DNA from: Cepaea nemoralis
Taxonomy: Eukaryota; Mollusca; Gastropoda; Stylommatophora; Helicidae
Assembly: GCA_014155875.1 (NCBI GenBank)
Contig: JACEFZ010027051.1
Location: forward strand, 51,644 to 115,643
Direction: 5' to 3'
DNA: 64,000 nt
Part shown: positions 28,616-39,939 of the stretch, piece after piece
Position numbering within the stretch: position 1 is the stretch's first letter
How the letters are laid out: each line of letters opens with the position of its first letter
Translations under genes and position numbers: made by a program
Notes under the pieces: generated by a model
What the model was told of the DNA's origin: nothing
Database searches by the model: none
Seen by the model: the letters and a program-made list of their open reading frames with translations, nothing else

Positions 28616-29049
28616 AGTAGTATGTCAGAAGGTATTTAAGTAGGTTTTGGGGTCCGCTTCAGGGGTCCGGAAGTCGTATTTTTCTATATGAATGTTATCC
28701 CGCCCACAGCGGACCACATAGAAAACGGACCCCAAATGACCCAGATATTTGAAAATGGCGGTTATTTTCTTGGGTTTGGATGACTACTTCCGGTTGTCAC
28801 TTCCGGTACATGGCTACCCCCTACCCAGGTCCCCCTATCCAGGTCCCCCGTACCCGAACCGGCGCGAACCGGTGCGAACCGAACCGATACAGAGCGGACG
28901 TCGGCGCGCGATCCGACCGGGCGGGTGTGGGGGCACCGCGGCGGTGGGTGATCGATCCCCAGTCTAGACCCTTCGATGAAGAAGACTGAAGTCAATATGT
29001 CATAAATTGATTTATTTCATCTCTCGAGCGAACCCGAGTAGGTCAAGTA

Positions 29050-29238
29050 ATGACCGTCTTAATAAACTTTTGCACGGCTCAGAATGCTAATTCGACAGAA
29101 GTCCCGACCCCAGGTATAGCCTCTACGCGTTTGGTGAAAATCTGCTTTAGGAATATACCAGACAAAGAAATTTTATTAAAAATTAACCCTTACACATGTA
29201 ATAACGCCAAAATTTCTTGTATGTATACTAGAGAATAG
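29050..29238 (+). CDS. Small ORF in Polinton left arm (62 aa), unknown
   Basis: A 62-codon frame, intact here and at 39313-39501 in the other arm, with one residue different (C/Y at position 8). I recognise no domain. As the arms are alike anyway, conservation is weak evidence for function. Confidence 0.25.
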   Translation: MTVLINFCTAQNANSTEVPTPGIASTRLVKICFRNIPDKEILLKINPYTCNNAKISCMYTRE

Positions 29239-29869
29239 GTACATCAATATATAACTCTAATCCCCGTTTAAAATAAGCCATAATATTCCTAGATATACAT
29301 TAAAATATGTAATATTATTAAACATCAAAGTTATACCCCTTAATTATAAAAATATTCCAAGGGAAATAAATCGGAGCCCTTGGCTCAAACCAGAATTGTT
29401 TCCCATTTTAAGTGCTGACCTCCCTTGAATGTCTGTATACCTACGCGACCAGGTAAAGAAACCTGCGCCACCAGGTAAACAGCACACACAATAGACAGCG
29501 ACCACGAGATTTTCCAATACCGGTCAAGCATATCGCTTCACCGAGCACACCCCACGAGAAAAATACAATGACCAGCAACATGTAGAACGCCTACGGAATT
29601 GTCAATTAACATGGACGGCCTTCAATGCTTATTGTAGATAGCCGTCAGAAAACTGTGAAGGGAATATTTGTGCAGAAAAAAAAAAATATTCCTATCCGAA
29701 ACCGTTATATATATTATTTGAAATATTAAATATAAATAGATATGTATGTATTTATGTATGTAATTCTATAGCTGTAGGTAGGTTGTCCAAAATGGTTAAG
29801 GCGTATATACGTACTTGCTTTGATGACTTAGTCACGCGGGATATGTGTGCGCGTCTGTGCGTGTGTGTG

Positions 29870-31130
29870 TGCGCTAGCGCGCGTGTATCCTATCAATTAC
29901 AGGACATCACAGTCAGTCCCAACATTCGGAGGAGTGGTGTGCTTGCTGGCCATGTTTACCATTATCATTATGGACGAACGACAAGCATGTCACGTGTGCG
30001 TGCGCGCGCGCGTGTGTGTGTGTATGTGTGTGCTAGCAATTACAGGACGTCGCATGCAGCCCCAACATTGATTGATTGGTCGTGTGCCACCATGATGTAC
30101 CATGCTATTTCACGACCAAAGCGTGGGTGTACTGTCGGGTTAGAGTGTGTGTGTCCTATCAATTACAGGACGTCGCAGTCAACCCCAACATTGTTTATGC
30201 AATGCATTTACAGAACGTTCAAACAACCCCAACATTGATTGGTATGCGTGGACCATCAGGACATCTGTGCGCATGTGTGCGCGCATGTAGGCGTGTGTGC
30301 GTGCGTGGGTGTGCTATCAATTGCAGGACATCACAGTCAACCTCAGTATTCTACGGAGTGTCTGACTTCCTGAGGCAAGGTTTGCCATTATCATTATGGA
30401 AGAACGATAGTCATGGGGTGTGTGCTACCGCGCGTGTGTGTATATACATCCGAGTGTGCATGCTCGCCCGCGTGTGTGCTATCAATTACAGGACATCACA
30501 GTCAACCTCAACATTCTTTGGAGTTTCGTGTGTGCTGGGCAAGTTTGCAATTGCCATTATATACGAACGACAGTCAGGTCGTGTGCGCTAGCGCAGTGTG
30601 TGTATGTACATGCGTGTGTGGATGTGCGTGCGTGTGTGCTATTAATTACACGACGGCGCAGTCAACCCCAACATTCTATGGAGTGGTGTGCTTGCTGGGT
30701 AAGATTGCTGCTGTCTTATTGAACGAGCGGCAGTCATGTCACATGCGTAGGCGTGCGTGTATGTACATGCATGTGTGTGCGCTATCAATTACAGGACGTC
30801 GCTTGCAACCCCAACATTGATTGGTTGGTCGTGTGCCACCATGTTTTACCGTGTCAAGGCATGACCAAAGCTATGTCTTACACTATACCTGTGTGTCTAT
30901 CTTTTACATAGCATAGTTAAGCTGTAAGACAAGCCATTTACAGGACGTTGCACTCAGCCCTAACATTGATTGGTTGGTCGTGTGCTATCATGATTCGCCG
31001 TGTCACCGCACGACCAAAACTATACCTTGTACTATAGTTGTGTCTGGCTATTACATACTGCAGTCAAGTTGTAACGAATTGCATTTACATGCCGTTGCAA
31101 TCAGTCCCAGCATTCATCCTTCTTGGACAA
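29870..31130 (-). repeat. SINE-body minisatellite, left arm (about 10 units)
   Basis: Units of roughly 110-160 bp each contain ATTACAGGACNTCNCAGTCA, CCCCAACATTC and TTNCCATTATCATTATGGACGAACGACAG. They are separated by GTGTGTGCGCG-type purine/pyrimidine alternations. On the minus strand the unit reads CGNTCGTCC...ATGGCAAAC...ATGTTGGGGTTGACTG...GTCCTGTAAT, the same order of words as the SINE 3' body at 43980-44100. The array therefore seems to have grown from a SINE tail without its tRNA-like head. Confidence 0.75.
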
Positions 31131-31213
31131 GCTTGCCGTTGTCTTTCTGAACGACCGACAACCATGATCTTCTGCGGTCTCTGTCAGCAGGATTACCATC
31201 ATCAGCATCAGCC

Positions 31214-31354
31214 AGCACCACCAACAAAATCATTATCATCATCATCATCATCATCATCATCATCATCATCATCATCATCATCATCATCATCATCATCATC
31301 ATCATCATCATCATCATCATCATCATCATCATCATCATCATCATCATCATCATC
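31214..31354. repeat. (TCA)n microsatellite, left arm
   Basis: About 47 TCA triplets. The matching place in the right arm (37261-37283) has only about 7, so it expanded or shrank after the arms formed. Confidence 0.95.
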
Positions 31355-37260: not shown

Positions 37261-37283
37261 GTTGATGATGATGATGATGATAA
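37261..37283. repeat. (TGA)n microsatellite, right arm
   Basis: About seven triplets. It is the counterpart of the 141 bp (TCA)n run in the left arm. Confidence 0.9.
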
Positions 37284-37384
37284 TCATTTTGTTGGTGGTG
37301 CTGGCTGATGCTGATGATGGTAATCCTGCTGACAGAGACCGCAGAAGATCATGGTTGTCGGTCGTTCAGAAAGACAACGGCAAG

Positions 37385-38665
37385 CTTGTCCAAGAAGGAT
37401 GAATGCTGGGACTGATTGCAACGTCATGTAAATGCAATTCGTTACAACTTGACTGCAGTATGTAATAGCCAGACACAACTATAGTACAAGGTATAGTTTT
37501 GGTCGTGCGGTGACACGGCGAATCATGATAGCACACGACCAACCAATCAATGTTAGGGCTGAGTGCAACGTCCTGTAAATGGCTTGTCTTACAGCTTAAC
37601 TATGCTATGTAAAAGATAGACACTCAGGTATAGTGTAAGACCTAGCTTTGGTCATGCCTTGACACGGTAAAACATGGTGGCACACGACCAACCAATCAAT
37701 GTTGGGGTTGCAAGCGACGTCCTGTAATTGATAGCGCACACACATGCATGTACATACACGCACGCCTACGCATGTGACATGACTGCCGCTCGTTCAATAA
37801 GACAGCAGCAATCTTACCCAGCAAGCACACCACTCCATAGAATGTTGGGGTTGACTGCGCCGTCGTGTAATTAATAGCACACACGCACGCACATCCACAC
37901 ACGCATGTACATACACACACTGCGCTAGCGCACACGACCTGACTGTCGTTCGTATATAATGGCAATTGCAAACTTGCCCAGCACACACGAAACTCCAAAG
38001 AATGTTGAGGTTGACTGTTATGTCCTGCAATTGATAGCTCACACGCGGGCGCGCATGCACACACGGATATATATATATATACACAAGCTCGGTAGCACAC
38101 ACCCCATGACTGTCGTTCGTCCATAATGATAATGGCAAACCTTGCCTCAGGAAGTCAGACACTCCGTAGAATACTGAGGTTGACTGCGGTGTCCTGCAAT
38201 TGATAGCACACCCACGCAGGCACACACGCATTTATATACACACACGTGCGCTAGTGCACACGCCCTGACTGTCGTTCGTATATAATGACAATTGCAAACT
38301 TGCCCAGCACACACGAAACTCCAAAGAATGTTGAGGTTGACTGTGATGTCCTGTAATCGATAGCACACCCACGCACGCACACACGCCTACATGCGCGCAC
38401 ACATGCGCACAGATGTCCTGATGGTCCACGCGTACCAATCAATGTTGGGGTTGTTTGAACGTTCTGTAAATGCATTGCATAAACAATGTTGGGGTTGACT
38501 GCGACGTCCTGTAATTGATAGCACACCCCCCCCCCACACACACACACACACGCACACGTGAAATGCTTGTCGTTCGTCCATAATGATAATGGTAAACATG
38601 GCCAGCAAGCACAACAATCCACCGAATGTTGGGACTGACTGTGATGTCCTGTAATTGATAGGACA
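37385..38665 (+). repeat. SINE-body minisatellite, right arm
   Basis: Inverse counterpart of 29870-31130. In this orientation the unit runs CGTTCAGAAAGACAACGGCA, then AGCTTGTCCAAGAAGGATGA and ATGCTGGGACTGATTGCAAC, ending GTCATGTAAATG, which lines up word for word with the SINE body at 43980-44100. Confidence 0.75.
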
Positions 38666-39312
38666 CACGCGCGCTAGCGCACACACACACGCACAGACTC
38701 GCACACATATCCCGCGTGACTAAGTCATCAAAGCAAGTACGTATATACGCCTTAACCATTTTGGACAACCTACCTACAGCTATAGAATTACATACATAAA
38801 TACATACATATATATTTATATTTAATATTTCAAATAATATATATAACAGTTTCGGATAGGAATATTTTTTTTTTTCGGCACAAATATTCCCTTCACAGTT
38901 TTCTGACGGCTATCTACAATAAGCATTGAAGGCCGTCCATGTTAATTGACAATTCCGTAGGCGTTCTACATGTCGCTGGTCATTGTATTTTTCTCGTGGG
39001 GTGTGCTCGGTGAAGCGATATGCTTGACCGGTATCGGAAAATCTCGTGGTCGCTGTCTATTGTGTGTGCTCTTTACCTGGTGGCGGAGGTTTCTTTACCT
39101 GGTCGCATAGGTATACAGACATTCAAGGGAGGTCAGCACTTAAAATGGGAAACAATTCTGGTTTGAGCCAAGGGCTCCGATTTATTTCCCTTGGAATATT
39201 TTTATAATTAAGGGGTATAACTTTGATATTTAATAATATTACATATTTTAATGTATATCTAGGAATATTATGGCTTATTTTAAACGGGGATTAGAGTTAT
39301 ATATTGATGTAC

Positions 39313-39501
39313 CTATTCTCTAGTATACATACAAGAAATTTTGGCGTTATTACATGTGTAAGGGTTAATTTTTAATAAAATTTCTTTGTCTGGTATATTC
39401 CTAAAGCAGATTTTCACCAAACGCGTAGAGGCTATACCTGGGGTCGGGACTTCTGTCGAATTAGCATTCTGAGCCGTGTAAAAGTTTATTAAGACGGTCA
39501 T
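39313..39501 (-). CDS. Small ORF in Polinton right arm (62 aa), unknown
   Basis: Counterpart of 29050-29238, equally intact. No recognisable domain. Confidence 0.25.
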   Translation of the reverse strand: MTVLINFYTAQNANSTEVPTPGIASTRLVKICFRNIPDKEILLKINPYTCNNAKISCMYTRE

Positions 39502-39939
39502 TACTTGACCTACTCGGGTTTGCTCGAGAGATGAAATAAATCAATTTATGACATATTGACTTCAGTCTTCTTCATCGAAGTGTCTAGACTGGGGATCGAT
39601 CACCGACCGCCGCGGTGCCCCCACACCCGCCCGGTCGGATCGCGCGCCGACGTACGCTCTGATCGGTTCGGTTCGGTTCGCACCGGTTCGCGCCGGTTCG
39701 GGTACGGGGGACCTGGATAGGGGGACCTGGGTAGGGTGTAGCCATGTACCGGAAGTGACAACCGGAAGTAGTCATCCAAACCCAAGAAAATAACCGCCAT
39801 TTTCAAATATCTGGGTCATTTGGGGTCCGTTTTCTATGTGGTCCGCTGGGGGCGGGATAACATTCATATAGGAAAATACGACTTCCGGACCCCTGAAGCG
39901 TACCCCAAAACCTACTTAAATACCTCCTGACATACTACT

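Follow-up and report, generated by a model that had tools for sequence, protein, structure and literature searches.

A symmetric 11.3-kb element of Cepaea nemoralis, probably a mobile fold-back derivative of one end of a Polinton/Maverick-like element

Polintons, whose integrases carry a chromodomain, are believed to multiply as linear DNA with protein priming, and virions may be formed as well. Where a terminal protein serves as the primer, linear DNA is replicated by strand displacement, as has been established for adenovirus. In the available portion of PMC8097293 intact vertebrate Mavericks are given as 12.7-24.6 kb long, with terminal inverted repeats (TIRs) of 46-1,447 bp, seven or eight core open reading frames (ORFs), (AGT)2//(ACT)2 or (AG)3//(CT)3 motifs at their ends and 6-bp duplications, and a portion of PMC2836005 notes that Polinton integrases resemble those of Gypsy. 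Here we describe an 11,324-bp element in a stretch of 64,000 nucleotides from the gastropod Cepaea nemoralis (contig JACEFZ010027051.1, positions 51,644 to 115,643), the whole of which is called the window and to which coordinates refer unless another contig is named. According to our analysis, the element is probably a member of a mobile fold-back lineage that descends from a single end of a linear, Polinton/Maverick-like element. Its structure, the centre that it shares with a second insertion, the termini and the duplications are seen directly in the assembled sequence.

Comparable molecules are known from adenovirus. Symmetric genomes mediated by inverted repeats were reportedly described by Steinwaerder in 1999, and left-end defective DNA is said to have been described by Daniell in 1976 (cited in PMC5033970). 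The likeness lies in a protein-primed linear genome giving a derivative with the same end on both sides; the adenovirus DNA comes from the laboratory or from virions, whereas here we deal with chromosomal insertions bearing target duplications. In the cytomegalovirus strains AD169/Towne, according to PMC2885757, the left end is duplicated in inverted form and takes the place of a right-end region; this is an analogy only, from another virus group with another replication mode, and most of the genome is kept there. Galileo/Foldback elements are similar in that their copies consist almost wholly of long, internally repetitive inverted repeats, but they belong to the P-element superfamily and have 7-bp duplications and other termini (PMC3573991, in part); with its 6-bp duplication and AGTAGT ends the window element falls outside that group. 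Our literature search, which covered non-autonomous as well as symmetric Polintons and was not exhaustive, found no description of a symmetric fold-back Polinton.

The boundaries of the element at 28616 and 39939 are exact, and its ends read AGTAGTATGTC on the left and GACATACTACT on the right. The terminal features are as follows.

28616..28621, + strand: left terminus, AGT twice (AGTAGT), a motif of vertebrate Mavericks according to the available part of PMC8097293
39934..39939, - strand: right terminus, ACT twice (ACTACT), the inverted copy of the left terminus
28610..28615, no strand: left target-site duplication, CTTCTA
39940..39945, no strand: right target-site duplication, CTTCTA, direct and exact

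A preliminary description of this DNA had proposed AG...CT termini and a 6-bp target duplication, which are confirmed here as AGTAGT...ACTACT between exact copies of CTTCTA. The duplication, the AGT x2/ACT x2 ends and the linear form with inverted ends are those of Polinton/Maverick elements; the element differs from them in its length of 11.3 kb, in being nearly all inverted copy and in that no core enzyme gene was found in it.

An inverted match joins 28616-32811 to 35649-39939, over 4 kb, with in-register blocks that are 96-98% identical, as the alignment proposed in the preliminary description had anticipated; a match so long in inverted orientation is not a product of chance. With the GT-rich repeats and the ATC microsatellite set aside, 51 of 3,399 sites differ. 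Counted over the entire outer piece, with the repeats that are out of register, there are 178 differences in 4,074 sites and ten insertions or deletions (indels) of 3-132 bp. Most of the remaining mismatches (116/454) fall in the block at 30.0-30.5 kb, within which, as a comparison of two alignments indicates, the matching segments change register; this would fit gain or loss of repeat units of about 150 bp. Arms of about 4.2 kb had been proposed, and these are real, although the symmetry does not stop there but continues to a 30-nt loop, so that the arms measure 6,982 and 4,312 bp.

28616..35597, + strand: left arm of 6,982 bp, the end segment that underlies the entire element
35598..35627, no strand: loop of 30 nt, the palindrome centre; 4 of 30 nt differ from the loop of the related insertion C8770 (compared by eye)
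35628..39939, - strand: right arm of 4,312 bp, which repeats 28616-35597 in inverted orientation except for 32808-35571
35572..35597, + strand: left half of a perfect 26-bp stem, its partner at 35628-35653
32808..35571, + strand: part of the left arm without a right-arm counterpart, 2,764 bp; its inner portion 35203-35571 is present on both sides in C8770

The stem and loop abut the start of the 4.3-kb right arm. With simple repeats filtered out, the stem is the sole perfect inverted repeat of at least 16 bp with a loop of at most 60 nt in the 64 kb, and the surrounding 161 nt, modelled as DNA, give a better fold than any of 200 shuffled sequences (z -4.62). The outer match ends at 35653/32807 and the inner one at 35653/35572; they have a single base in common (35653) and leave none over, so the right arm is the left arm inverted with one gap of 2,764 bp, apart from smaller indels of up to 132 bp. 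The palindrome before this deletion would measure 6,982 + 30 + 6,982 = 13,994 bp. That the right arm is explained by the left arm minus one large deletion, with stem and loop at the junction, supports the fold-back reading. An older TIR nested in the arms was considered and rejected: the first 285 sites, with 8 mismatches and a 4-bp gap, lie within the range of the other blocks (96.8-99.3% outside repeats).

A search of the genome (3.47 Gb, 26,579 contigs) with the outer 300 bp returned 41 rows; 40 of 1,475 candidates were scored. Twelve rows form six inverted pairs on the same contig, namely the window element and the insertions here called C19819, C3905, C8770, C15859 and C424; the other 28 end matches are unpaired. 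All six pairs have AGTAGT...ACTACT termini and a 6-bp duplication, which is exact in four (CTTCTA in the window, CCCAGT, CCTACC in C8770 and ATCCTG) and accompanied by three extra bases at one end in TTAGTA (C424) and GTTTTG (C3905). Inverted arms exceed 2 kb in four of the six. C8770 (15,757 bp) and C424 (about 23.5 kb) lie inside the vertebrate size range quoted above, and the window element, C19819 (6,493 bp), C15859 (10,444 bp) and C3905 (725 bp) outside it.

The strongest evidence comes from C8770 (66650-82406 of its contig), whose arms pair at about 95-97% over more than 6 kb and whose centre is the window's loop inside a perfect 50-bp inverted repeat; its central 5.9 kb holds no ORF of at least 120 codons. 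Window positions 35203-35653 match both sides of that loop, at 72759-73217 and, reversed, at 73587-73136, and this is the continuation whose loss from the right arm in the window had been deduced. An undeleted palindrome running outward from the window's loop is what a fold-back model predicts, and C8770 shows one. Since the two insertions share a centre and have different duplications, the palindrome predates both and was moved. The inner-arm distances (17/386 sites between the C8770 arms, 18/385 between each of them and the window) are as expected if one palindrome existed before both insertions. Both ends derived from one end, a short central loop and a second insertion with the same centre are thus all found, and the snap-back origin and mobility suggested by the preliminary description gain support from this same centre at another locus with another 6-bp duplication. 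It had been fixed beforehand that the proposal would fail if no other symmetric copies existed; C8770 is one, and the same ends are found on two other palindromes, C19819 and C3905.

Identity of the outer block within an element is 98.3% in the window, 97.9% in C8770, 97.9% in C19819 and 95.5% in C424, and between arms of different elements at most 96.3% (longest BLAST piece per pair in each case); the two arms of each of these four elements are closer to one another than either is to other elements. This closeness, like the retention of both termini and the target duplication, is what would be seen if an ordinary insertion had its TIRs lengthened on the spot through gene conversion, a process put forward for Galileo in PMC3573991, where Polintons are remarked on too. 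The same centre in two insertions with different duplications argues against it, and as an origin of the palindrome we regard gene conversion as very improbable, though it may still act on existing arms. The arms may have been evened out near the ends, for example during copying, but not at the centre.

The surroundings of the element are informative, too. It lies in a pair of long interspersed nuclear element (LINE) copies that had itself entered an older LINE.

26585..28615, - strand: flanking 5'-truncated LINE copy, with the element at its 5' end
39950..41452, + strand: second LINE copy, in head-to-head orientation to the other and different from it at 31 of 1,501 sites
26489..26584, + strand: part of the older LINE to the left of the LINE pair inserted into it, 89.6% identical to 6703-6798 reversed
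41453..41833, + strand: right piece of the older LINE, 85.3% identical to 6189-6560 reversed

The 3' tails of both flanking copies point outward, with the older pieces beyond them and 142 bp of target missing between these; compared to a third copy, the flanking copies differ at 172/1,498 and 176/1,500 sites. We suggest that the pair is one doubly primed LINE insertion. Twin-priming of one LINE was rejected, as the copies overlap over the whole 3' part, and two separately primed copies in one event would fit better. A chromosomal inverted duplication including the flanks was rejected as well: the LINE copies are inverted but offset by 530 bp, the outer flanks differ and adjoin in one older LINE, and the 6-bp repeat is direct. 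Since both outer flanks come from neighbouring parts of a single older LINE, they show that the chromosome runs through the structure without a break. Divergence of the arms (1.50%, confidence interval (CI) 1.12-1.97) is not above that of the interrupted LINE pair (2.07%, CI 1.41-2.92; p = 0.18).

Fold-back reads do produce palindromes, and an assembly or chimeric-read artefact had to be weighed for this reason. Between the arms there is a divergence of 1.5%, along with indels of 26, 102 and 132 bp, the outer flanks adjoin in one LINE target, and the same centre occurs on another contig with other flanks (C8770), so we give this explanation hardly any credit.

Two of the remaining relatives are palindromes. 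C19819 is one with a 253-nt loop, inner arms 98.4% and outer arms 90.8% identical (BLAST), and a centre that differs from the window's; it may be an independent palindrome or a deletion across the window's centre. A deletion point common to it and the window was rejected: a BLAST edge falls at 32807, but the C19819 arm runs past it with one mismatch. C3905 (within 125300-126300) has 330-bp arms, 97% identical, around a 71-nt loop, and is a miniature relative, a palindrome with the element's ends. C15859 (within 8330-18880) lacks the symmetry and has a TIR of about 240 bp; at one end only does the likeness to the window arm extend further inward, to 29315, at 78%. An ORF of C15859 matches integrase (best expectation value (E) 0.0015) and chromodomain (E 2.7e-5) chains, with an RNase H-like ORF nearby. 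Judged from its sequence, this integrase-like ORF could be an enzyme source or a part of a nested retrotransposon.

These data bear on a fold-back element of some non-Polinton superfamily with 6-bp duplications, an explanation compatible with the structural reading. No Polinton hallmark gene was matched in the window element, and its 245-aa ORF, named as capsid, has no significant match; against this explanation stand the (AGT)2/(ACT)2 termini and the 6-bp duplication, which are the pair reported for Mavericks, and C15859, which has the same ends and the integrase and chromodomain ORF, the nested retrotransposon being kept in mind. We find a non-Polinton affiliation rather improbable.

The fold-back lineage probably arose in the following way. 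The parent would be copied as free linear DNA by strand displacement; the growing strand would fold back over about 30 nt and copy itself to the terminus. Alternatively two broken left ends (at 35597 and 35627) would be joined head to head, with the same outcome, a palindrome whose two sides finish in identical ends and thus presumably each carry a replication origin. The palindromic genome would then be copied and repeatedly inserted, with a 6-bp duplication, by an end-recognising integrase supplied in trans, and the copies would afterwards have lost or gained inner pieces. The free replicating DNA, the fold-back and the integrase acting in trans are what we infer; the short-TIR relative C15859 is a candidate source of enzymes only. 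In favour of the fold-back reading we also count the 6-bp duplications in six of six pairs, the C19819 palindrome, the closeness of arms within an element, the single LINE target and the absence of Pfam matches described below.

Several observations weigh against it. The six pairs are those for which both ends happened to be among the 40 candidates scored out of 1,475, and this sample favours close and intact ends. In C8770 the 245-aa ORF of the window is missing (tblastn), 2.6 kb (73642-76257) are without an inverted partner at 90%, and the duplication CCTACC sits in a repetitive tract; moreover its arms at the very centre are no closer mutually than to the window, so homogenisation of arms is not general. 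The window element was inserted 2 bp from the 5'-5' junction of the two LINE copies (28609-28616, 39940-39950), either by coincidence or by a preference for inverted-repeat junctions. Finally, C424 has arms of about 4.8 and 5.5 kb (152238-157025 and 170182-175717), each with the 245-aa ORF, and between them other sequence with an ORF of at least 520 codons, which gave no meaningful match in PDB. These long arms around other sequence mean that complete elements with long TIRs may exist, and the palindromes could accordingly derive from complete elements whose TIRs were very long, about 5 kb with the 245-aa ORF inside them, and which lost their core; long-TIR families do occur in other superfamilies, as a portion of PMC3573991 describes. 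In the window and in C8770, however, the arms meet at the 30-nt loop, and deletion of a core would not leave arms mirrored up to a loop unless the TIRs already reached it. C15859, with the same terminal sequence, has a TIR of only about 240 bp. Loss of the core from a long-TIR element is therefore an explanation that we take seriously but consider unlikely, and derivation from one end by folding back is preferred.

Coding capacity of the element is modest, and its features are these.

32410..33147, + strand: ORF of 245 aa, called minor capsid (a name unmatched in every library)
35637..36050, - strand: right-arm copy of the 245-aa ORF, cut at the deletion point
36050..36325, - strand: ORF of 92 codons, perhaps a small membrane protein (judged by eye), open in the right arm
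33706..33711, + strand: AATAAA 3' of the 245-aa ORF, a possible polyadenylation signal

The element holds 78 ORFs of at least 50 codons. Leaving out four of the ATC type, we compared 74 with Pfam at limits of E 0.001, 1 and 0.1. None of the 74 matched above the cut-off, and PolB, integrase, ATPase, protease and major capsid were not found among them; the best matches under the cut-off were DUF624 (E 0.0044) and, for an ORF made of repeats, a capsid-barrel model (E 0.089). Neither Rfam families nor tRNAs were detected in the 64-kb window. The preliminary description saw a minor-capsid gene in the arms, a label that the searches do not confirm: the 245-aa ORF has no significant match in Pfam, PHROGs, NCBIfam or PDB. 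Sub-threshold matches were to Ly49 (E 1.3) and to a haemagglutinin chain in PDB (E 0.56); IMG/VR, GTDB contigs and phages yielded no confirmed relative, only 1 and 31 unconfirmed pattern stretches, and the AlphaFold model of the product is too poor (predicted local distance difference test, pLDDT, 31). Relatives within the same genome are found in C424 and C19819. The last codons of the ORF were changed by a 316-bp tandem duplication, and the left-arm copy of the 92-codon ORF (32161-32410) is frameshifted by a 26-bp difference. Ten codons differ between the two copies of the 245-aa ORF, 7 of them non-synonymously, where about 78% is expected without selection; the differences look like neutral drift.

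Read inward, the left arm consists of about 1.2 kb of unique DNA, repeats of about 150-160 bp, an (ATC)n tract, the 92-codon ORF, the 245-aa ORF, AATAAA and AT-rich tandem repeats.

29843..31120, + strand: degenerate repeats of about 150-160 bp, counterpart about 37399-38700
31229..31373, + strand: (ATC)n microsatellite, 102 bp longer than the right-arm copy
33929..35357, + strand: AT-rich tandem repeats with units of about 62, 84 and 187 bp
33116..33436, + strand: 316-bp tandem duplication, the second of its two copies (the first lies at 32800-33115, with 3 differences in 316 sites)

The repeats at 29843-31120 had been called promoter-like; as repeats they are real, and the promoter character is not borne out, as motifs in that block are not clearly above the shuffles (TATAWAW 1 versus 0.48, TATAAA 0 versus 0.44, initiator 2 versus 2.1). 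In the unique stretch 28616-29840 TATAWAW occurs 8 times versus 3.06 in shuffles, an excess that leaves room for some promoter signal close to the ends of the element. The tandem duplication of the left arm and the deletion of the right arm begin within 8 bp of one another (32800-32811). At 31982-32127 (right-arm copy about 36359-36504) there are stretches of about 50 bp that are 88% like 21997-22046 and 22329-22380, and a 38-bp stretch like LINE sequence near 19540; possibly this is a fragment of a host short interspersed nuclear element-like sequence present in both arms.

Elsewhere in the window, 11671-21423 holds a head-to-tail pair of LINE units, each about 4.88 kb long, that differ at 29 of 4,863 sites, a similarity unusual for a LINE tandem. 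At 46901-54977 direct repeats of 551 bp (98.9%) surround ORFs with integrase zinc-binding and RNase H matches, with a gag-protease match under the cut-off; by these sequence features it is identified as a long terminal repeat retrotransposon. Minisatellite-like arrays lie at 2938-4062, 7862-8525, 23966-25276, 55422-55999 and 57597-58364; those at 3-4, 24-26 and 55-57 kb have a strong strand skew, and the 24-kb and 55-kb arrays match inverted.

In the portion of PMC7805220 available to us an extracellular form of Polintons had not been detected. A palindrome of one end with a short fold-back loop is the expected trace of copying of a free linear genome, and the same centre at two sites with different duplications indicates that the fold-back genome persisted and moved; the shared centre would thus be indirect evidence of a free replicating stage. 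The palindrome also suggests that a single terminus serves both integration roles. To our mind the chances are about even that Polinton-like elements of this genome shed one-end, self-complementary, satellite-like genomes which replicate from a pair of identical origins, owe their integration to the enzymes of complete elements and spread through insertions of their own. The approach offers a way to read the history of defective genomes from animal chromosomes and, if our reading is true, these insertions would preserve in the chromosomes, as a fossil record, the defective-interfering genomes of a DNA virus with protein-primed replication.

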